From Burkholderiales bacterium (lineage in GTDB: Bacteria > Pseudomonadota > Gammaproteobacteria > Burkholderiales > Burkholderiaceae_C): DNA of 64,000 bases. The position numbers and the translations under genes are program-made. Location: assembly GCA_030604135.1 (NCBI GenBank), contig JAUVWL010000009.1:62001-126000 (forward strand), read 5' to 3'. The first letter of the stretch is position 1, and the number at the start of each line of letters is the position of its first letter. Below are positions 2,896 through 12,131 of this stretch, piece by piece. The notes below the pieces were generated by a model. That model had not been told where the DNA came from, ran no database searches, and worked only from the letters and a program-made list of their open reading frames with translations.

Positions 2896-4314
2896 ATGCG
2901 CTGGTTCCGGCCGTCCTTCCCGCAACTGCTGCTGGCTGCTTTCCTGCTGATCGGCCTGCTGCTGGGCGCCACCGCCTTGCGGGCATTGTTTTCGCTGGAG
3001 TCGCTGATGGCCCAGAGCCGCGCCAGCGCAGCCCAGGCGGTGGAGCTGACCAGCGCGGCGCAATCCCTCTCAGAGCGCAGCGTCGCCATGGAGCGGGCCG
3101 CTCGCCAGTCACTGGTGCTGCGCGATGCGCAGTTGCGCCAGCAGTTCGACGACGGAGCCCGCCAGGCTCAGGAGATCCTGCGCCGGCTGGAAGACAACGA
3201 CCTGCCCGCCCAAACGGGTCAGGCATGGCGACAGCAACTGGCTCAGGTGACGTCCGATCTGGACGACCCGACCGAGCCGGCGCTGGATCAGGACCGCCTG
3301 ATTGCCCAGTCGTTTCGCGAGATGGACCTGCTCAACCGGACGGTTGCCCAGCAAGTCCAAGCCATCATGGCCGAACGCAACACCGCCTTGCAGGACCGAC
3401 TGGACCTGAGCCGTCAACAACTGGCCATTCAGGTGACCGGCTCCATCCTGCTGTCGGCCGCCATGGCCATCGGATTTGGTGTCTGGCTGGCCAGACCGCT
3501 GCAGCGACTGGAGAAGGCCATCGTCGGTCTGGGCGAGAACCGTCTGACAGACGGCATCGACATTCCCGGCCCGCCGGACATCCAGCGCGTTGGCCAGCAG
3601 CTCGAGTGGCTGCGCCTGCGCCTGACCGAGCTCGACGCGGACAAGGCCCGCTTCCTGCGTCACATCTCGCACGAGCTGAAGACCCCACTGGCGTCGATTC
3701 ATGAAGGTGTGGCCGTGCTGGGCGACGGCGTGGCCGGCGCGCTGAACGAGAACCAGAGCGAGGTGGTGCGCATCCTGCAGCACAACACCCACAGCCTGCA
3801 GGAACAGATCGAGGCCCTGTTGCGGTTCAATGCCGCGGCATTTGAAGCCAGGCAATTGCGGCGCCAGCCCACCGACCTTCGTGCCCTGGTCGACCACCAG
3901 ATCGAGACGCTGCGCCTGCGCTGGCAGTCGCGGCAGATCCAGATGCGGGTCACTGGCGATGCACCACCGCTGCAGCTGGACCCTGAAAAAATGGGCTCGG
4001 CCATTGGCAACCTGCTGATCAACGCCATTCGCTTCGCCCCGCCAGCATCGCGGGTGGAGGTGGTTCTCAGCCGTACGCCGGGCCTTGTGCAGATCGATGT
4101 GATCGACGAAGGTCCAGGCATCGACGAACAGGACCGGGCCTACGTTTTTGAACCCTTCTACCGCGGCCGACGCCAGCCGGACGATGCGGTGCGTGGCACG
4201 GGCGTCGGACTGTCGATCGTCCAAGAGTACATTCAGGCCCATGGCGGCCGTGCCCAGCTGCTCACCACGGAGCGCGGCGCCCATTTCCGGATCGAATTGC
4301 CCCATGCCGCCTGA
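2896..4314 (+). CDS. glrK: Sensor histidine kinase, GlrK (QseE) type
   Basis: Membrane sensor kinase of the GlrK/GlrR pair. There is one membrane span at residues 9-32, a periplasmic helical region of about 140 residues, a second span around 175-198 and a HAMP-like linker. The H-box is FLRHISHELKTPLASIHEG. The ATP-binding part has an N-box (LLINAIRFAP), G1 (DEGPGIDEQ) and G2 (GTGVGLSIVQEY). The frame is open far upstream inside miaB, but the ATG at 2896 gives a normal N-terminus and a length of 472. It overlaps the next gene by 11 bp. The assignment rests on the three-gene order kinase / lipoprotein / sigma54 activator, which is diagnostic for this system. Confidence 0.85.
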   Translation: MRWFRPSFPQLLLAAFLLIGLLLGATALRALFSLESLMAQSRASAAQAVELTSAAQSLSERSVAMERAARQSLVLRDAQLRQQFDDGARQAQEILRRLEDNDLPAQTGQAWRQQLAQVTSDLDDPTEPALDQDRLIAQSFREMDLLNRTVAQQVQAIMAERNTALQDRLDLSRQQLAIQVTGSILLSAAMAIGFGVWLARPLQRLEKAIVGLGENRLTDGIDIPGPPDIQRVGQQLEWLRLRLTELDADKARFLRHISHELKTPLASIHEGVAVLGDGVAGALNENQSEVVRILQHNTHSLQEQIEALLRFNAAAFEARQLRRQPTDLRALVDHQIETLRLRWQSRQIQMRVTGDAPPLQLDPEKMGSAIGNLLINAIRFAPPASRVEVVLSRTPGLVQIDVIDEGPGIDEQDRAYVFEPFYRGRRQPDDAVRGTGVGLSIVQEYIQAHGGRAQLLTTERGAHFRIELPHAA

Positions 4315-4957
4315 CCTTGTTCGCCACTCGCTGACCATCATGACCTGCGTCCTGCTGGGGGCCTGCAGCGCCACCCGGCCCGACTCGGCTGCGGTGCTCG
4401 CGACGCACCCACCCGCCGCCATCAACCCCACTCCCGCTCCAGCCGAGCCGGCTCAATGCGTGACCGATGCCCCCGTCCGTGTGCTGACAGACCAGCACGG
4501 CGATGGTCTTTCCTGCGTCGATTCAATCGACAGCCTGGACCAGGCCCTGGCCTATGCCGAGCGCGTGCGCCCCATGTCCCAGACCGAACTGCAAGCCGAA
4601 CTGAAGGCCCTGGGCGACCCCGGGCATCAACCGGCGCGCCAGATGCAGGTGGCCCTGGTCCTGATGCAGATGCAGCAGCCGGTCGAGACGGCGCGCGCGC
4701 TGGGCTTGCTGCAACGCGTTCAGGCCTCGGCCACCACCGAGGCCGAGACGCTGCGGCCATTGGCTCGGCTGCTGGCCGGCGTGTTGTCCAACCAGCGGCG
4801 CCTGGAAGAGCAACTCGAACGGCATGCGGCGCAGTTGCGCGATGCCCAGCGGCGCATCGACCGGCTGGGCGAGCGCCTGGAGGCCATGCGAGCCATCGAG
4901 CGCAGCCTGGGTCCACGGGGCAACGGTGCACCACCCGCGGCCCGACCCACGCCATGA
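4304..4957 (+). CDS. QseG/GlrL-like outer-membrane lipoprotein of the glr operon
   Basis: 217-residue predicted lipoprotein. The ATG at 4304 gives MPPDLVRHSLTIMTCVLLGAC, with lipobox LLGAC. A Pro/Ala-rich linker follows, then an alpha-helical body ending in a strongly charged coiled coil (EEQLERHAAQLRDAQRRIDR). In enterobacteria the middle gene of this operon encodes a lipoprotein that activates the kinase from the periplasmic side, and this protein has the right position, size and architecture. Its start overlaps the glrK stop, and its TGA overlaps the glrR ATG (ATGA), so all three proteins are probably made by coupled translation. Sequence similarity to the enteric protein was not tested. 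Confidence 0.75.
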   Translation: MPPDLVRHSLTIMTCVLLGACSATRPDSAAVLATHPPAAINPTPAPAEPAQCVTDAPVRVLTDQHGDGLSCVDSIDSLDQALAYAERVRPMSQTELQAELKALGDPGHQPARQMQVALVLMQMQQPVETARALGLLQRVQASATTEAETLRPLARLLAGVLSNQRRLEEQLERHAAQLRDAQRRIDRLGERLEAMRAIERSLGPRGNGAPPAARPTP

Positions 4958-6354
4958 GCGGCAGCAACAGCCCACTGGCTGCCCGCGCCCGCCTGCTGGT
5001 GGTCGATGACGACCCCGACATGCTTCGGCTGCTCTCGATGCGCCTGCATGCGGCCGGGTACCGGGTCACAGCGGTGGGCTCAGCCGAAGCCGCGTTGGGC
5101 CAGCTGGACATCGAACGCCCCCAGCTGGTGCTGTCGGACGTGCGCCTGCCCGGCAAGGACGGGTTGACGCTGTTCGACGAGATCCGGGCACGGCACCCCT
5201 CGCTGCCAGTGATCCTGCTGACGGCCCACGGCACCATCCCCGACGCGGTCGAGGCCACGGCGAGGGGGGTGTTCGGCTACCTCACCAAACCCTTCGACGC
5301 CAAGGAGCTGCTGGAGAAAATCGGGCAGGCACTGTCCCTGTCCGCGCCTGCCGGCCCGGCCCCCACCGCCGACGAAAGCTGGCGCGCCGGCATCGTCAGC
5401 CGCTCCAGCCGCATGGCCGACCTGCTGGCCGAGGCGCGCCTGATCGCCCAGGGCGATGCCAGTGTGCTGCTGCGTGGCGACAGCGGAACCGGCAAGGAGC
5501 TGCTGGCCCGGGCCATCCACCTGGCCAGCCGACGGGCCCGGCGCCCGTTCGTGGCGGTCAATTGCGGCGCCATTCCGGAGGCCTTGCTGGAGTCCGAACT
5601 GTTCGGGCATGTCAAGGGTGCCTTCACCGACGCGGTGGCCAACCACAAAGGCCTGTTCCAGGCGGCCGACGGCGGCACACTGCTGCTCGACGAAATCGGC
5701 GACATGCCCCCGGCCCTGCAGGTCAAGCTCTTGCGGGTGCTGCAGGAGCGCGCCGTGCGCCCGCTCGGATCCAGCCAGTCCATTCCGGTGGATGTGCGCA
5801 TCATCTCGGCCACCCACCGCGACCTGGAAGCCGCCATGGCCCAAGGCCAGTTCCGCGAGGACCTGTACTACCGCCTCAACGTCGTCACCCTGCAGCTGCC
5901 CACCCTGGCCGAGCGGCGGGAGGACATTCCGCTGCTGGCCAACCACTTCCTGACCCTCCTTGCGGCCAAATACGGCAAACGCAGCGCCGGCTTCGCCCCC
6001 GAAGCGCTCAAGGCCCTCACCCTGGCCAGCTGGCCCGGCAACGTCCGGCAGCTCTACAACGTGGTGGAGCAGACCTGCGCCCTGTCCACCACACCGCTGG
6101 TGTCGCTGGCCATGGTGCAGCGCGCGCTGCGCACCCCTTCCGTCGAGGTGCTGAGTTTTGCTGAAGCCCGCCAGCGCTTTGAGCGCGACTACCTGGTGGG
6201 CCTGCTGAAGATGACGGACGGCAATGTCGCCGACGCCGCCCGCCTGGCCCAGCGCAACCGCACCGAGTTCTACCGCCTGCTGCAGAAGCACGATCTCACG
6301 CCCGGACTCTTCAAGAGCGATACCGCAGGGGCCGACCCTGTCGCCGATTCGTGA
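4954..6354 (+). CDS. glrR: Sigma54-dependent response regulator, GlrR (QseF) type
   Basis: NtrC-family activator of 466 residues. The receiver domain has acidic residues DDD at 18-20 and phospho-acceptor Asp62 (LSDVRLPGKDG). The AAA+ domain has Walker A GDSGTGKE (175-182), Walker B LLLDEIGDMP and the arginine-finger region. The sigma54-contact loop reads GAFTDA (222-227) instead of the consensus GAFTGA. The C-terminal Fis-type helix-turn-helix (TDGNVADAARLAQRNRTEFYRLL) matches the GlrR subgroup. A perfect GlrR-type operator and a -24/-12 promoter lie immediately downstream, before opgG, so opgGH is the likely local target. Confidence 0.88.
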   Translation: MSGSNSPLAARARLLVVDDDPDMLRLLSMRLHAAGYRVTAVGSAEAALGQLDIERPQLVLSDVRLPGKDGLTLFDEIRARHPSLPVILLTAHGTIPDAVEATARGVFGYLTKPFDAKELLEKIGQALSLSAPAGPAPTADESWRAGIVSRSSRMADLLAEARLIAQGDASVLLRGDSGTGKELLARAIHLASRRARRPFVAVNCGAIPEALLESELFGHVKGAFTDAVANHKGLFQAADGGTLLLDEIGDMPPALQVKLLRVLQERAVRPLGSSQSIPVDVRIISATHRDLEAAMAQGQFREDLYYRLNVVTLQLPTLAERREDIPLLANHFLTLLAAKYGKRSAGFAPEALKALTLASWPGNVRQLYNVVEQTCALSTTPLVSLAMVQRALRTPSVEVLSFAEARQRFERDYLVGLLKMTDGNVADAARLAQRNRTEFYRLLQKHDLTPGLFKSDTAGADPVADS

Positions 6355-6404
6355 CCCTCGCAAAGCGTTGATTCACAAAGATTTTTTCTCGGCAACCGAG
6401 CGGC

Positions 6405-6424
6405 CTGTCGCCAATTGGCGACAG
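6405..6424. promoter_or_regulatory. Perfect 20-bp palindrome matching the GlrR operator TGTC-N10-GACA
   Basis: CTGTCGCCAATTGGCGACAG is a perfect inverted repeat. Its core, TGTC then 10 bases then GACA (6406-6423), matches the enhancer sequence described for enteric GlrR upstream of glmY. It lies 50 bp after the glrR stop and about 130 bp upstream of the predicted start point of the opgG promoter, the usual place for a sigma54 activator site. That GlrR binds it is inferred. Confidence 0.75.
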
Positions 6425-6485
6425 ATTCGGCCCTCGGCGGGGTGTTCTTGCCGGAAAAAGCGTCCAATCCCCCAAGAGAGTCGTC

Positions 6486-6498
6486 CAAGTCTTTGATC
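6486..6498 (-). promoter_or_regulatory. IHF-like site between operator and sigma54 promoter
   Basis: CAAGTCTTTGATC fits the reverse complement of the IHF consensus WATCAANNNNTTR at every defined position but the last. It is centred about 50 bp upstream of the predicted start point, between the palindrome and the -24/-12 element, where IHF normally bends DNA to bring the activator to sigma54 polymerase. IHF sites are degenerate, so this alone would be weak; the position is what supports it. Confidence 0.5.
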
Positions 6499-6517
6499 TG
6501 AAAAGGAAAAACCGACC

Positions 6518-6533
6518 TGGCACAGGGTTTGCC
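6518..6533 (+). promoter_or_regulatory. Sigma54 (-24/-12) promoter of opgGH
   Basis: TGGCACAGGGTTTGCC: TGGCAC, five bases, TTGC, with GG and GC at the exact -24/-12 spacing. The start point would fall at or within a few bases of 6544, which is also the first ATG of the opgG frame. That leaves no room for a leader with a Shine-Dalgarno sequence. Confidence 0.75.
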
Positions 6534-6543
6534 CTAGTTGGGC

Positions 6544-8103
6544 ATGACTCTCTGTTTGTTCCCCTCGGTCTCCATTGCGGGTACGCGCCTGGCGCTGACG
6601 CTGATGACCTGCCTGGCCTGTGCCACCTCGTGGGCACAGGCCATGGACTGGCCGGGCCTGAAGGACCTGGCCCGCAGCCGGTCGCTGGCTCCCTACATCC
6701 CCACGCCCGATCAGTTGCCCCCCGACCTGGCCGCGCTGGACTACGACGGGGTCCGGGACATCCGCTTTCGGCCCGAGCGCGCCCTCTGGCGGGACCGTCA
6801 GCTGCGCTTTGAGGTCCAGTTCTTCCACCTCGGCCTGTACCAGCGACAAGCCGTGCGCATCCACGAGGTGGGACCCGAAGGCACCCGGCAGCTGCCGCAC
6901 CAGTCGGCCGACTACGACTACGGCCGCAACCGCCTGGACACCGCCGCCTGGGACGAACTCGGTCATGCCGGGTTCCGCCTGCACCATCCCCTGAACAACC
7001 CCGCGTACAAGGACGAGCTGGTGGTCTTCCTGGGCGCCAGCTACTTCCGCGCCCTGGGCGCCGGACAGCAGTACGGCCTTTCGGCCCGGGGACTGGCCAT
7101 CGACACCGTCGGCGGACAAGGGGAGGAGTTTCCCCGCTTCACCGACTTCTGGCTGCTTCAACCCGAGGCTCAAGCCGACCGCGTGACCGTGCTCGCCCTG
7201 CTCGATTCGCCGCGCGCCACCGGCGCCTACCGCTTCGAGATCCGACCGGGCACATCCACCGTGATGACCGTCGATGCGAGCGTCTACCTGCGCGACGGCG
7301 GACAGCCCATTGCCCGCCTCGCCCTGGCCCCCCTGACCAGCATGTTCCTGCACGGCGAGAACCAGCCCAGCGCCACCGATTTCCGCCCCGAGGTGCACGA
7401 CTCCGACGGCCTGCTCATGCACAGCGGCAGCGGCGAATGGCTCTGGCGCCCTTTGCAGAACCCCCGGCAGATTTCGGTCAGCAGCTTCCAGATGACGGCC
7501 CCGAAAGGTTTCGGCCTGATGCAGCGCGACCGGCGCCACACCAGCTACGAGGACCCGGAAGCCCACTATGAGAAGCGCCCGAGTGCCTGGGTCGTTCCTC
7601 AGGGCGACTGGGGGACGGGTCAGGTCGAACTGGTGCAACTGCCCACACCCGACGAAACCCACGACAACATCGTTGCGTACTGGGTCCCGGCCACGCTGCC
7701 GGCACCGGGCCAGCCGCTGGACTTCAGCTACGAACTGCACTGGCAGGGCGACCAGCAGCAAAAGCCGCCCGGCGCCTGGGTAAGCCAAACCCGGATCGGA
7801 CACGGCTACACCCGCCTGACGCCGGACGAACAGCGTCTTCAGCCGCACTTCGTCGTCGACTTTGACGGCCCTGCCCTGAAAGCCCTGCCGGCAGACGCCA
7901 CCGTGCGCGCGGTGGTCACGGCCGACGCCAACGGCCAGGTTGTCGAATCCCTGGTCTACCCCTACCCGGCCGCCGGCACCTGGCGCCTGAGCCTGCGTGT
8001 GCAGCGCCTGGATCCGGCGCGACCGGTCGAGCTGCGCGCCTTCCTTCAAACGGACAACCACACCCTGAGCGAAACATGGACGCACGTCATACTGCCCGAC
8101 TGA
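6544..8103 (+). CDS. opgG: Periplasmic glucan biosynthesis protein OpgG/MdoG
   Basis: Periplasmic protein needed to make or branch osmoregulated periplasmic glucans. The N-terminus has a hydrophobic signal (residues about 14-31) ending in SWAQA. The MdoG fold follows, with family motifs such as YDGVRDIRFRPERALWR, YFRALGAGQQYGLSARGLA and GDWGTGQVELVQLPT. The length is 519 from the ATG at 6544. The start is uncertain: no Shine-Dalgarno precedes 6544 and the sigma54 start point maps there, so either the mRNA is leaderless or translation begins at a downstream codon such as TTG 6556. The gene overlaps opgH by 28 bp. Confidence 0.93.
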   Translation: MTLCLFPSVSIAGTRLALTLMTCLACATSWAQAMDWPGLKDLARSRSLAPYIPTPDQLPPDLAALDYDGVRDIRFRPERALWRDRQLRFEVQFFHLGLYQRQAVRIHEVGPEGTRQLPHQSADYDYGRNRLDTAAWDELGHAGFRLHHPLNNPAYKDELVVFLGASYFRALGAGQQYGLSARGLAIDTVGGQGEEFPRFTDFWLLQPEAQADRVTVLALLDSPRATGAYRFEIRPGTSTVMTVDASVYLRDGGQPIARLALAPLTSMFLHGENQPSATDFRPEVHDSDGLLMHSGSGEWLWRPLQNPRQISVSSFQMTAPKGFGLMQRDRRHTSYEDPEAHYEKRPSAWVVPQGDWGTGQVELVQLPTPDETHDNIVAYWVPATLPAPGQPLDFSYELHWQGDQQQKPPGAWVSQTRIGHGYTRLTPDEQRLQPHFVVDFDGPALKALPADATVRAVVTADANGQVVESLVYPYPAAGTWRLSLRVQRLDPARPVELRAFLQTDNHTLSETWTHVILPD

Positions 8104-10073
8104 ATGCGCCCGCCCGCGGCCTGCTGCGCGAAGAGCGACACCCCAACTCGGTGACGGCCCCGCCGTTGCTGCGCGGGTCCATGCCACCCCGTCCCTGGGC
8201 GGGATTCTGGAAGGGTCTGGGTTCGGCCGCGCTGTTCATCGCGACCCGACTGATGCCCCCCCGGGAACCACGGGCACCCCTCGCCGCCACAGCAGCGGCA
8301 TGGGAGCGCGCGGCGATCCAACGTCGCCGCAGCTTTCTGGCCCTGACGGTCTGCATCAGCCTGCTCGCTGCCCTGCTGTTCGTGCAGGTGCAGCCCGAGA
8401 TCGGACCTGCCTGGGTACAGGCCCTGCACGCCCTCCTGTTCGTGGTGCTGACCACCTGGGTGGCCACCGGGTTCGTGACCGCCCTCATGGGGGCCTGGGT
8501 TCTGCTGCGCGGCGACCGGCACAGCGTGTCGGCGGCCTCGGTCCGAGATCGCGAGCTGTCGGGTGACACCCGCACCGCCATCATCATGCCCATCTGCAAC
8601 GAGGACGTTGCCACCGTCTTTGCCGGCCTGCGGGCCACTTGCGAATCGCTGGCTGGAACCGGCCATGCAAGGCAATTCGACGTCTATGTCCTGTCGGACA
8701 GCAACGACCCTGAGACCATCGCCGCTGAACGGCAGGCATGGGAAGCCCTGCGATCGGCACTGACCACACCGTCTGGCGAGGCGGCCGTGCAGGTGTACTA
8801 CCGCCTGCGCCGCCGGCGCACGCACCGCAAGGCCGGCAACGTGGCCGACTTCTGCCGTCGCTGGGGCCGGCAATACGACCATATGGTGGTGCTCGACGCC
8901 GACAGCGTGATGAGCGGCGCCTCGCTGGTCACCCTGGCCAAACTCATGGAAGCGAACCCCCAGGCCGGCATCATCCAGACCGCCACCCAGTCGATCGGTC
9001 ACCAGACGCTGCACGCACGGGCCCAGCAGTTCGCCGCCCGGGTCACGGGCCGGCTGTTCACCCTGGGCATGCAGTACTGGCAGCTCGGCGAATCCCACTA
9101 CTGGGGGCACAACGCCATCATCCGCGTCGACGCCTTCATGCGCCACTGCGCCCTGGCACCGATCCAGGGGCGCGGCGGCCTCAGTGGCGGCATCCTGTCG
9201 CACGACTTTGTCGAAGCAGCCCTGATGCGACGCGCCGGCTACCACGTGTGGCTGGTGGCCGACGTCGGCGGCAGCTTCGAACAGCAGCCCCCGGACCTGC
9301 TGTCCGAACTGCAACGCGACCGTCGCTGGTGCCAGGGCAACCTGCAGAACGCCCGCCTGATCGCCGAACCCGGTCTTCACGGCATGCACCGGGCCATGCT
9401 GGCCGTGGGCACCATGTCATACCTGTCGGCACCGCTTTGGCTGGGCTTCATGGTCCTGGGGCTGGCCATGCTGCTGTCAAGCGGCCTGGGCGTGGCAGGT
9501 GCGCGCCCCCTGTCTGGCGCCAGCCTGGGCCTGTGGGCCGTGACCCTGACCCTGCTGTTTATGCCCCGGGTGCTTGGCGTGGCCGCCGTCCTGCTCAAGG
9601 GACAGCAACGCGGCTTCGGCGGCACCTGGCGCCTGCTGGGCAGTGCCCTGCTGGAAACCATTCTGGCCATCCTGCAGGCGCCCGTGCGCATGATCGCTCA
9701 CTCGATCTTTGTCTGGGCCGCGCTGACCGGCATGAAGCTGGACTGGAAATCCCCGCCACGGGAAGCCACCGGTGTGTCCTGGCGCACCGCCGCGGGCCGG
9801 CTGGGCGCCATGCAGATGGCGGCACTGATGTTCATGAGCGCCATGGCACTGACCCATCCGGGCCTTTTGCCCTGGTTGCTGCCGGTCACCCTGCCACTGG
9901 CGCTGGCTGTCTTCACCACCGTGCTCACCGGTCACGTCCGCCTGGGCGAGTGGGCACGTTCCGGTGGTGCGCTGCTGGTTCCGGAGGAAGCCTGGTCACC
10001 CGCCGTCCTTCGCAAGGCCTGGCGCCACGCTTCCCGCATGAGCATGAGCCGAGCCGCCGTCACAGCCGGCTGA
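8076..10073 (+). CDS. opgH: Glucans biosynthesis glucosyltransferase OpgH/MdoH
   Basis: Inner-membrane family-2 glycosyltransferase that polymerises the glucan backbone from UDP-glucose. It has two N-terminal membrane spans (about residues 86-145) and a cytoplasmic GT domain with MPICNEDVATV, the metal-binding DxD (VVLDADSVMSG), the catalytic HDFVEAALMRRAG and the QRDRRWCQGN motif. Several C-terminal spans follow. At 665 residues it is shorter than enteric OpgH (about 850), mainly in the N-terminal tail. The 28-bp overlap with opgG suggests coupled translation, and both are probably under the GlrR/sigma54 control region at 6405-6533. Confidence 0.94.
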   Translation: MDARHTARLNAPARGLLREERHPNSVTAPPLLRGSMPPRPWAGFWKGLGSAALFIATRLMPPREPRAPLAATAAAWERAAIQRRRSFLALTVCISLLAALLFVQVQPEIGPAWVQALHALLFVVLTTWVATGFVTALMGAWVLLRGDRHSVSAASVRDRELSGDTRTAIIMPICNEDVATVFAGLRATCESLAGTGHARQFDVYVLSDSNDPETIAAERQAWEALRSALTTPSGEAAVQVYYRLRRRRTHRKAGNVADFCRRWGRQYDHMVVLDADSVMSGASLVTLAKLMEANPQAGIIQTATQSIGHQTLHARAQQFAARVTGRLFTLGMQYWQLGESHYWGHNAIIRVDAFMRHCALAPIQGRGGLSGGILSHDFVEAALMRRAGYHVWLVADVGGSFEQQPPDLLSELQRDRRWCQGNLQNARLIAEPGLHGMHRAMLAVGTMSYLSAPLWLGFMVLGLAMLLSSGLGVAGARPLSGASLGLWAVTLTLLFMPRVLGVAAVLLKGQQRGFGGTWRLLGSALLETILAILQAPVRMIAHSIFVWAALTGMKLDWKSPPREATGVSWRTAAGRLGAMQMAALMFMSAMALTHPGLLPWLLPVTLPLALAVFTTVLTGHVRLGEWARSGGALLVPEEAWSPAVLRKAWRHASRMSMSRAAVTAG

Positions 10074-10760: not shown

Positions 10761-12131
10761 TCAACCCATGCCGGGGAGCTTGGGCATGCCCTTCATGCCA
10801 CCCATGCGCTTCATCATCTTCATGAGGCCGCCGCCCTTCATTTTTTTCATCATGCCCTGCATCTGCTCGAACTCCTTGAGCAGCCGGTTGACTTCCTGCA
10901 CATGCACACCGGCACCGGCGGCGATGCGGCGCTTGCGTGTGGCCTTGATGAGCTCGGGCTTGCTGCGCTCCTTGGGCGTCATGCTGCAGATGATGCCCTC
11001 CTTGCGCTTGATGTCCTTTTCGGCGCGGGTCAGGTCGGCCTCGCTGGCCTTGGCCGCCAGGTTGCCCGGCAATTTGTCCATCAGGCTGGACAGCCCCCCC
11101 ATCTGCTTCATCTGGCGGATCTGCTCGAGGAAGTCATTGAGGTCGAAACCCTCGCCGCTCTTGACCTTGGCCGCCAGCTTCTGAGCCGCGGCCATGTCGA
11201 CACCGGCCGTGACCTGCTCGACCAGGGCAACGATGTCGCCCATGCCCAGCACGCGCCCGGCATGACGCTCGGCGTCGAACACCTCCAGCCCGTCGATCTT
11301 CTCGGACACACCGGCGAACTTGATCGGCGCCCCGGTCACCTGGCGCACCGACAGGGCGGCGCCCCCGCGCGAGTCGCCGTCGGTCTTGGTCAGAATGATG
11401 CCGGTCAGTGGCAGGGCCTCCTTGAAGGCCTTGGCGGTGTTGATCGCATCCTGGCCCTGCATGGCATCGACCACGAACAGGGTCTCCACCGGGTGGATGG
11501 CCGCGTGCAGTTCCTGGATCTCGCGCATCAGGACTTCGTCGATCGCCAGACGACCGGCCGTATCCACCAGCAGCACATCAAAAAAGTGCTTGCGCGCGTA
11601 ATCCAGCGCTCCGCGGGCGATGTCCAGCGGCTTCTGGTCGGGCGTGCTCGGAAACCATTCGGCGCCGGCCTGGGCGGTCACCGTTTTCAGCTGTTCGATG
11701 GCCGCCGGCCGGTAGACGTCGCCCGAGACCGTCAGCACCTTCTTCTTGCGCTTTTCGATCAGGTGTTTGGCCAGCTTGGCGGTGGTGGTGGTCTTGCCGG
11801 CACCCTGCAGGCCCGCCATCAGGATGACGGCCGGCGGCTGCGCCGCCAGGTTCAGGTCGGCCACCCCCTCGCCCATGGTGGCGGCGAGTTCCCGGTTGAC
11901 GATACCCACCAGGGCCTGGCCCGGGGTTAGCGAGCCGACCACTTCCTGCCCGAGTGCCTTTTCTTTCACCCGGGCGATGAAATCGCGCACCACCGGCAGG
12001 GCCACATCGGCCTCGAGCAGCGCCATGCGCACCTCGCGCAGCATCTCGCTGACGTTGTCCTCGGTGATGCGGGCCTGGCCGCGCATCGTCTTGACGATGC
12101 GTGACAGGCGTTCGGAAAGTGCTGATGCCAT
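10761..12131 (-). CDS. ffh: Signal recognition particle protein Ffh (SRP54)
   Basis: GTPase subunit of the bacterial SRP, which binds 4.5S RNA and delivers nascent membrane proteins to FtsY. The N domain starts MASALSERLSRIVKTMRG. The G domain has the P-loop GLQGAGKTTTTAKLA near residues 107-121, DTAGRL and TKTDGDSRGG. The M domain is Met-rich (about residues 295-456), with the RNA-binding SKPELIKATRKRRIAAGAG and the tail MMKRMGGMKGMPKLPGMG. The length of 456 is typical. The 104-bp gap to the CcsA-like gene must hold two divergent promoters. Confidence 0.97.
   Translation of the reverse strand: MASALSERLSRIVKTMRGQARITEDNVSEMLREVRMALLEADVALPVVRDFIARVKEKALGQEVVGSLTPGQALVGIVNRELAATMGEGVADLNLAAQPPAVILMAGLQGAGKTTTTAKLAKHLIEKRKKKVLTVSGDVYRPAAIEQLKTVTAQAGAEWFPSTPDQKPLDIARGALDYARKHFFDVLLVDTAGRLAIDEVLMREIQELHAAIHPVETLFVVDAMQGQDAINTAKAFKEALPLTGIILTKTDGDSRGGAALSVRQVTGAPIKFAGVSEKIDGLEVFDAERHAGRVLGMGDIVALVEQVTAGVDMAAAQKLAAKVKSGEGFDLNDFLEQIRQMKQMGGLSSLMDKLPGNLAAKASEADLTRAEKDIKRKEGIICSMTPKERSKPELIKATRKRRIAAGAGVHVQEVNRLLKEFEQMQGMMKKMKGGGLMKMMKRMGGMKGMPKLPGMG

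Follow-up and report, generated by a model that had tools for sequence, protein, structure and literature searches.

The window, by which we mean the whole 64-kb stretch of DNA that was analysed, is part of a 3.98-Mb genome (contig C26), and the closest relatives of its opgG gene, among the best 80 of 161, are found in Burkholderiales MAGs and in Hydrogenophaga. At the locus described here, a glrK-like gene, a gene for a putative lipoprotein and a glrR-like gene are followed by a 189-bp gap, opgG and opgH. The genes and the candidate regulatory features are as follows:

2896..4314, + strand: glrK-like sensor histidine kinase gene (matches E. coli GlrK in BLASTP; Pfam domains)
4304..4957, + strand: gene for a putative lipoprotein, at the position of qseG (LLGAC near the N-terminus)
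4954..6354, + strand: glrR-like gene for a sigma54 activator (59% identity to E. coli GlrR)
6339..6356, + strand: distal GlrR operator (predicted), TGTCGCCGATTCGTGACC (10 of 12 consensus positions)
6405..6424, + strand: proximal GlrR operator (predicted), perfect 20-bp palindrome CTGTCGCCAATTGGCGACAG (TGTC-N10-GACA core at 6406-6423)
6486..6498, - strand: IHF-type site, GATCAAAGACTTG (one mismatch to WATCAANNNNTTR)
6518..6532, + strand: sigma54 promoter (-24/-12, predicted), TGGCACAGGGTTTGC (sole exact TGGCAC-N5-TTGC in 64 kb)
6544..6546, + strand: opgG start codon ATG (its A 12 nt after the C of the -12 element; predicted transcription start at about 6544)
6544..8103, + strand: opgG (mdoG; PF04349, 637.8 bits)
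8076..10073, + strand: opgH, glycosyltransferase gene (family 2 glycosyltransferase matches; overlaps opgG in the ORF list)

Encoded proteins and elements of the glrR-opgG gap

The glrK-like product matched E. coli GlrK (33% over almost the full length, E 4e-56, BLASTP) and possesses HisKA and HATPase_c domains. The product of the following gene, whose LLGAC motif we take to be a lipobox, showed a marginal match to E. coli QseG (26% over 93 aa, E 0.001) and no Pfam family above the cut-off. Based on NCBIfam, the best match of the third product was GlrR (equivalog NF011695, 616.6 bits), leading by 201 bits; because this score is under the curated cut-off of 763 bits, the protein is referred to as GlrR-like. 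Receiver and Sigma54_activat domains were detected in it with Pfam, and its HTH, placed by alignment only, contains an RNRTEFY stretch identical in E. coli GlrR. The GAFTGA loop of such activators contacts sigma54. In the window (5617-5634, in glrR) and at 39 related loci this loop reads GAFTDA; the 62 GlrR-like sequences compared, window included, comprised 40 with GAFTDA, 16 with GAFTGA, three with GSFTGA and three that were unreadable. The genome has one match to Sigma54_DBD and a single match to MdoG, namely opgG. The name opgH is assigned provisionally, by the position of the gene; OpgG and OpgH serve the production of periplasmic glucans in E. coli.

The sequence-only reading had described a control module in the gap, made up of a perfect TGTC-N10-GACA palindrome, an IHF-like site and a -24/-12 promoter. 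Each of these elements was found where described: the palindrome has no mismatch in its 20 bp, the IHF-type site lies on the minus strand and differs by one mismatch from the IHF consensus WATCAANNNNTTR, and the promoter is the only exact match of its kind in the 64 kb. The module as first drawn was, however, incomplete, as it lacked the second operator (6339-6356) and the abutment of the promoter on the start codon of opgG. This distal operator runs across the glrR stop codon to end just beyond it, 67 bp upstream of the proximal operator, and its terminal GACC represents one mismatch to TGTC-N10-GACA.

By itself, TGTC-N10-GACA is common and not significant: two copies were seen in the window against 0.82 expected, and the whole genome has 74, compared with 52 matches of a reversed-pattern control. 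The other copy in the window (11075-11092) falls within a long minus-strand ORF (10761-12131), probably by chance. The stricter TGTCGC-N6-GCGACA has one exact copy in the 3.98-Mb genome, in this palindrome. A genome-wide search for the operator upstream of a -24/-12 promoter, suggested by the sequence-only reading, returned the combination with TGGC-N7-TTGC at this geometry once, in this gap, with no control matches. A looser promoter pattern gave five further matches in the genome versus one control match, and TGGCAC-N5-TTGC with two mismatches occurs in the window at chance level. A wider GlrR regulon in this genome was considered and rejected, since the strict operator, when one mismatch was allowed, matched at 22 places versus 41 for the control.

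Conservation of the operators and their association with GlrR

Conservation was examined in 80 opgG loci, i.e. the best 80 of 161 relatives together with the window and minus L027, which was without upstream sequence. Counting as an operator pair two or more operators upstream of the promoter, each matching at least 10 of 12 positions, we found a pair in 65 of these 80 loci, window included, and in none of 3250 shuffled upstream stretches. Operator pair, IHF-type site and promoter are retained jointly in loci of Hydrogenophaga, Acidovorax, Polaromonas, Rhodoferax and Ideonella, the opposite of the loss in relatives by which the earlier reading would have been refuted. Among the 65 pair loci, the operators are 67 bp apart in 35 and 65–69 bp apart in 54, and the proximal operator is 110–113 bp from the promoter in 44, 122 bp in three and 80–102 bp in 18; outside the main class, these distances cluster near 122, 101, 93 and 81 bp. 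Judged by counts only, the distance classes appear to be about one helix turn apart, near whole turns. In 48 of the pair loci an IHF-type site equals the consensus exactly, as was the case for 12 of 3250 shuffles; elsewhere the best site has one mismatch (15 loci) or two (two loci), and in 62 of the 65 it is found on the minus strand, 31–32 bp before the promoter. The idea that unrelated motifs happen to meet within 189 bp draws on the commonness of bare TGTC-N10-GACA, but it is refuted by this joint conservation at fixed offsets, along with the 0 of 3250 shuffles with a pair and the single genomic occurrence of the full geometry, and we give it practically no weight.

The promoter of E. coli glmY contains TGTCGCTTTCTGGCGACA, TGTCTCTTTTTAGCGACA and a third operator copy. 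The operator type is therefore shared with glmY, as had been claimed from the window alone, and so is the RNRTEFY stretch of the activator. No TGTC-N10-GACA within one mismatch was found in 1.2 kb at E. coli opgG. A third operator-like site, approximately 200 bp before the promoter, was seen in L032, L033, L035, L053, L054 and L060; E. coli glmY likewise has three.

Fifteen loci were without a pair (L037, L074-L077, L079-L081, L083-L085, L087, L088, L090 and L092). L037 was scored so only because the script picked a promoter further downstream; it has two operators, at -228 and -160, and alone among the fifteen it showed a match to GlrR in the DNA fetched. The search for GlrR covered fourteen genomes at a chosen cut-off of 1e-100, with L080, L083, L084 and L087, all Ralstonia, outside the search. 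At this cut-off, GlrR was absent from eight searched pairless genomes (L076, L077, L079, L081, L085, L088, L090 and L092); the pairless L074 and L075 have a more distant GlrR (58%). In three Rhizobacter genomes (L041, L048 and L055), a GlrR that is 75–76% identical is encoded away from opgG, and both operators are kept at opgG. Near the unlinked glrR genes of these three, no site exceeds 10 of 12; two sites reach 10, both in one stretch, and the other two stretches lack any at this level. A Polaromonas MAG (L065) has the same look, with no GlrR in the 2.4 kb before the opgG promoter and a GlrR on another contig, with no operators nearby. As far as these genomes go, the predicted operators accompany GlrR even where glrR and opgG are unlinked.

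It might be argued that the operators act on glrKR, or are used by an activator other than GlrR, and stand before opgG through synteny, as the distal operator shares bases with the glrR stop codon and most loci with both genes have glrR ahead of opgG. This explanation appears very improbable to us in view of the three Rhizobacter genomes, of a promoter pointing towards opgG and not glrKR, and of an operator that is the same as that of E. coli GlrR.

A second sample was selected by GlrR. In a sample of 250 genomes of the family, GlrR-like proteins at 1e-150 were encoded by 67, which represent 42 genera. Two of these were set aside, G119 with both of its loci, as its glrR is unlinked, and G198, whose short fetched stretch gave no match to GlrR; 65 family loci were thus analysed. 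The promoter was taken to be the best-scoring GG-N10-GC, which may be wrong in weak cases. Two or more operators are found behind glrR in 59 of the 65 loci and one in the remaining six. The next recognised gene behind glrR is opgG in 31 loci, opgH in 25 (e.g. L110, L111, L127, L200, L204, L235, L244, L245, L252 and L257) and neither in nine.

Across the 250 genomes, the strict operator and promoter pattern (TGGC-N7-TTGC geometry) had 80 matches versus eight control matches. Of the 80, 31 were no more than 1.5 kb from glrR, 34 belonged to genomes that lack GlrR, and 15 were at other places in genomes with GlrR, including one at the Rhizobacter opgG. The 49 matches away from glrR are possible further targets; as the control gave eight matches in all, they may not all be background. 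At class level, 19 of 369 genomes, including that of the window, had matches to GlrR-type promoters. Six other class-level matches were inspected, and two of them, from one genus, are operator-like but precede a different small ORF. Furthermore, in L226, L241 and L227-L232, more distant GlrR-like genes (63–70% identical) are followed by operators and -24/-12 promoters with other genes behind them, possibly encoding small secreted proteins or a small RNA.

Start codons at the predicted transcription start

The RefSeq start of E. coli glmY lies 13 nt after the C of the -12 element (C+13). At C+12 to C+15, 56 of the 65 operator-pair loci have an in-frame start codon of opgG (ATG in 54, GTG in two), and for 27 of these 56 starts there is no alternative ATG, GTG or TTG from the -12 C to approximately twelve codons before the mature protein. 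The nine loci that do not fit this position are L041, L048, L051, L052, L055, L082, L086, L089 and L095; in L082 and L089, the ATG is at C+54 and is preceded by a strong Shine-Dalgarno sequence (-6.1 and -5.9 kcal/mol). Shine-Dalgarno scores before the 56 starts are like those of random 17-mers (medians -2.7 and -2.6), none being stronger than -4.0 kcal/mol, and two of the four other starts checked in the window were weak as well. The missing Shine-Dalgarno sequence is therefore weak evidence, taken only as consistent with a leaderless mRNA.

In the family sample, a gene starts at C+12 to C+15 in 34 of the 56 loci with opgG or opgH as first recognised gene (22 of 31 opgG-first, 12 of 25 opgH-first), spanning 23 genera, and among the 22 loci without a gene start there (nine opgG-first, 13 opgH-first) six have a short separate ORF with its ATG at C+13. 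Counted in any frame, an ATG occurs at these offsets in 41 of the 65 family loci (27 at +13, six at +14, four at +12 and four at +15), whereas no other offset from 1 to 59 has more than five in the same loci.

The gene behind the promoter is not always opgG. In L110, L111, L112 (from the same genome as L257) and L127, the promoter has no opgG behind it and an in-frame opgH start is found at +13 or +14. The 12 opgH-first loci with a start at C+12 to C+15 include two with GTG, and most offer an internal start too: an alternative internal opgH start is possible in L110, L111, L127 and several others, while L252 is without any other. In L236, L250, L251 and L253, an ORF of 66–67 codons with its ATG at +13 precedes opgH, and L238 has the same small ORF with no opgG or opgH in the stretch read. 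The coordinates are:

L250:398-595, small ORF
L251:398-598, small ORF
L253:419-616, small ORF
L236:398-598, small ORF
L238:423-623, small ORF

These ORFs of five genomes are related to each other (alignment A2) and have no Pfam or NCBIfam match above the cut-off. Full-length copies were confined to these five among the 250 genomes, with 18 other places giving partial and weak matches (E 1.8e-4 or worse).

In the genome of the window, TGGCAY-N5-TTGC has 35 sites versus five for the control. Other leaderless sigma54 genes were sought at the 30 of these 35 sites that were fetched, and an ATG at C+12 to C+15 was seen only at opgG; a GTG occupies this position behind three other sites (L159, L162 and L170). 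In L174 (1501-1515), TGGCACAGATGTTGC occurs 43 bases before an ORF that we take to resemble ribosomal protein L20, and may be a chance match or an odd sigma54 site.

The position of the start codons points to a putative conserved leaderless sigma54 mRNA. Another explanation is that GlrR and sigma54 do control opgGH, with OpgG made mainly from a leadered transcript, either by read-through from glrKR or from another promoter, so that the leaderless transcript would be accidental or poorly productive. The shared strand of glrR and opgG, only 189 bp apart, would permit read-through, and no terminator-like site was found between them (none at 6200-6750, where 0.5 were expected, hence with little power); moreover, the lineages of L082 and L089 do have leaders with strong Shine-Dalgarno sequences. 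Against a mainly leadered OpgG, the start remains within C+12 to C+15 in loci that differ in the signal-peptide coding region following it, and the ATG keeps its place when the gene behind it becomes opgH or the small ORF. Weaker arguments in the same direction are the Shine-Dalgarno scores, none beyond -4.0 kcal/mol before the 56 starts, and the lack of a sigma70-type promoter at 6200-6750, a search of little power with 0.0 expected. On balance, we consider the leadered explanation rather improbable.

Proposed control of opgGH and comparison with known systems

With a probability of roughly 0.8, we read the gap as holding the enhancer and the promoter from which GlrR and sigma54 would drive opgGH, the leaderless start included. 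The GlrR/sigma54 link to opgGH, the central proposal of the sequence-only reading, is strongly supported by comparison, because the operator pair is conserved, E. coli glmY has the same operator, genomes with an unlinked GlrR keep the operators at opgG and the eight searched genomes without this GlrR have no pair; the GlrR-based sample adds to this support. Relatives of Hydrogenophaga and Acidovorax appear to switch on periplasmic glucan genes with the envelope-sensing regulator that E. coli uses to activate a small RNA.

The following sequence of events is proposed. Envelope trouble would be sensed by the GlrK-like kinase and its lipoprotein partner, as suggested by E. coli, and phosphorylated GlrR would bind the operators seen at 6339-6356 and 6405-6424. 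IHF would bend the DNA at the site present at 6486-6498, and the bend would let GlrR meet sigma54-RNA polymerase at 6518-6532. Going by the promoter and by E. coli glmY, transcription would start on the opgG AUG or no more than about two bases from it. A leaderless mRNA would in this way be the template for OpgG, and OpgGH, if their role is that known from E. coli, would raise periplasmic glucan.

We lean, if only slightly, towards regarding the leaderless opgGH mRNA made by GlrR and sigma54 as a selected design, in which the fusion of promoter and start was kept across many genera and passed from opgG to opgH or the small ORF. If so, envelope stress would both switch on the glucan genes and route them to leaderless translation. 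Since sigma54 promoters are silent without their activator, such a fusion, if maintained from genus to genus, would provide a clean natural on/off system for leaderless translation. If the link holds, one sensor would act through a small RNA on envelope precursors in one group and directly on glucans in the other. The proposal offers a testable answer to what GlrR targets outside enterobacteria and to how periplasmic glucans are controlled in Burkholderiales.

The regulator and the promoter type are known; the proposed target opgGH and the predicted, unusual start are new. In line with the sequence-only reading, which knew of no description of the link, no publication joining GlrR or sigma54 with opg genes was found in the open-licence literature, and the glucan and opg/mdo terms looked up in PMC3162934 and PMC8657755 are absent from both. 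Likewise, the accessible portions of the open-licence literature contained no publication on a conserved sigma54 leaderless mRNA. GlrK-GlrR has been reported in beta-proteobacteria, with no target named there in the available part of the source (PMC8895600).

The closest counterpart of the region is the enterobacterial glmY promoter under GlrR (QseF) and sigma54, which has the same operator and, as predicted here, more than one copy of it ahead of a -24/-12 promoter assisted by IHF. For E. coli QseF, the available text of PMC6075780 describes three UAS with the consensus TGTN12ACA, help from IHF, the targets glmY and rpoE, and the lipoprotein QseG. Adjacent genes for glrK, a lipoprotein and glrR are a further common trait. 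In contrast to glmY, a small RNA encoded upstream of glrK, the proposed target here is the opgGH mRNA downstream of glrR, and, unlike at E. coli glmY, the promoter abuts a start codon. The opgGH genes resemble the E. coli opgGH (mdoGH) operon in encoding OpgG and OpgH, but opgG is situated behind glrR, with GlrR-type operators. Finally, other proteobacterial leaderless mRNAs resemble the predicted opgG mRNA in having their 5' end at an AUG that no clear Shine-Dalgarno sequence precedes. In the available parts of the respective reports, leaderless genes of C. jejuni are preceded by sigma70 promoters (PMC3847290) and leaderless mRNAs of B. japonicum have an extended -10 motif upstream (PMC4842269), whereas the promoter predicted here is of the sigma54 type, in an arrangement found in 23 genera of the sample.
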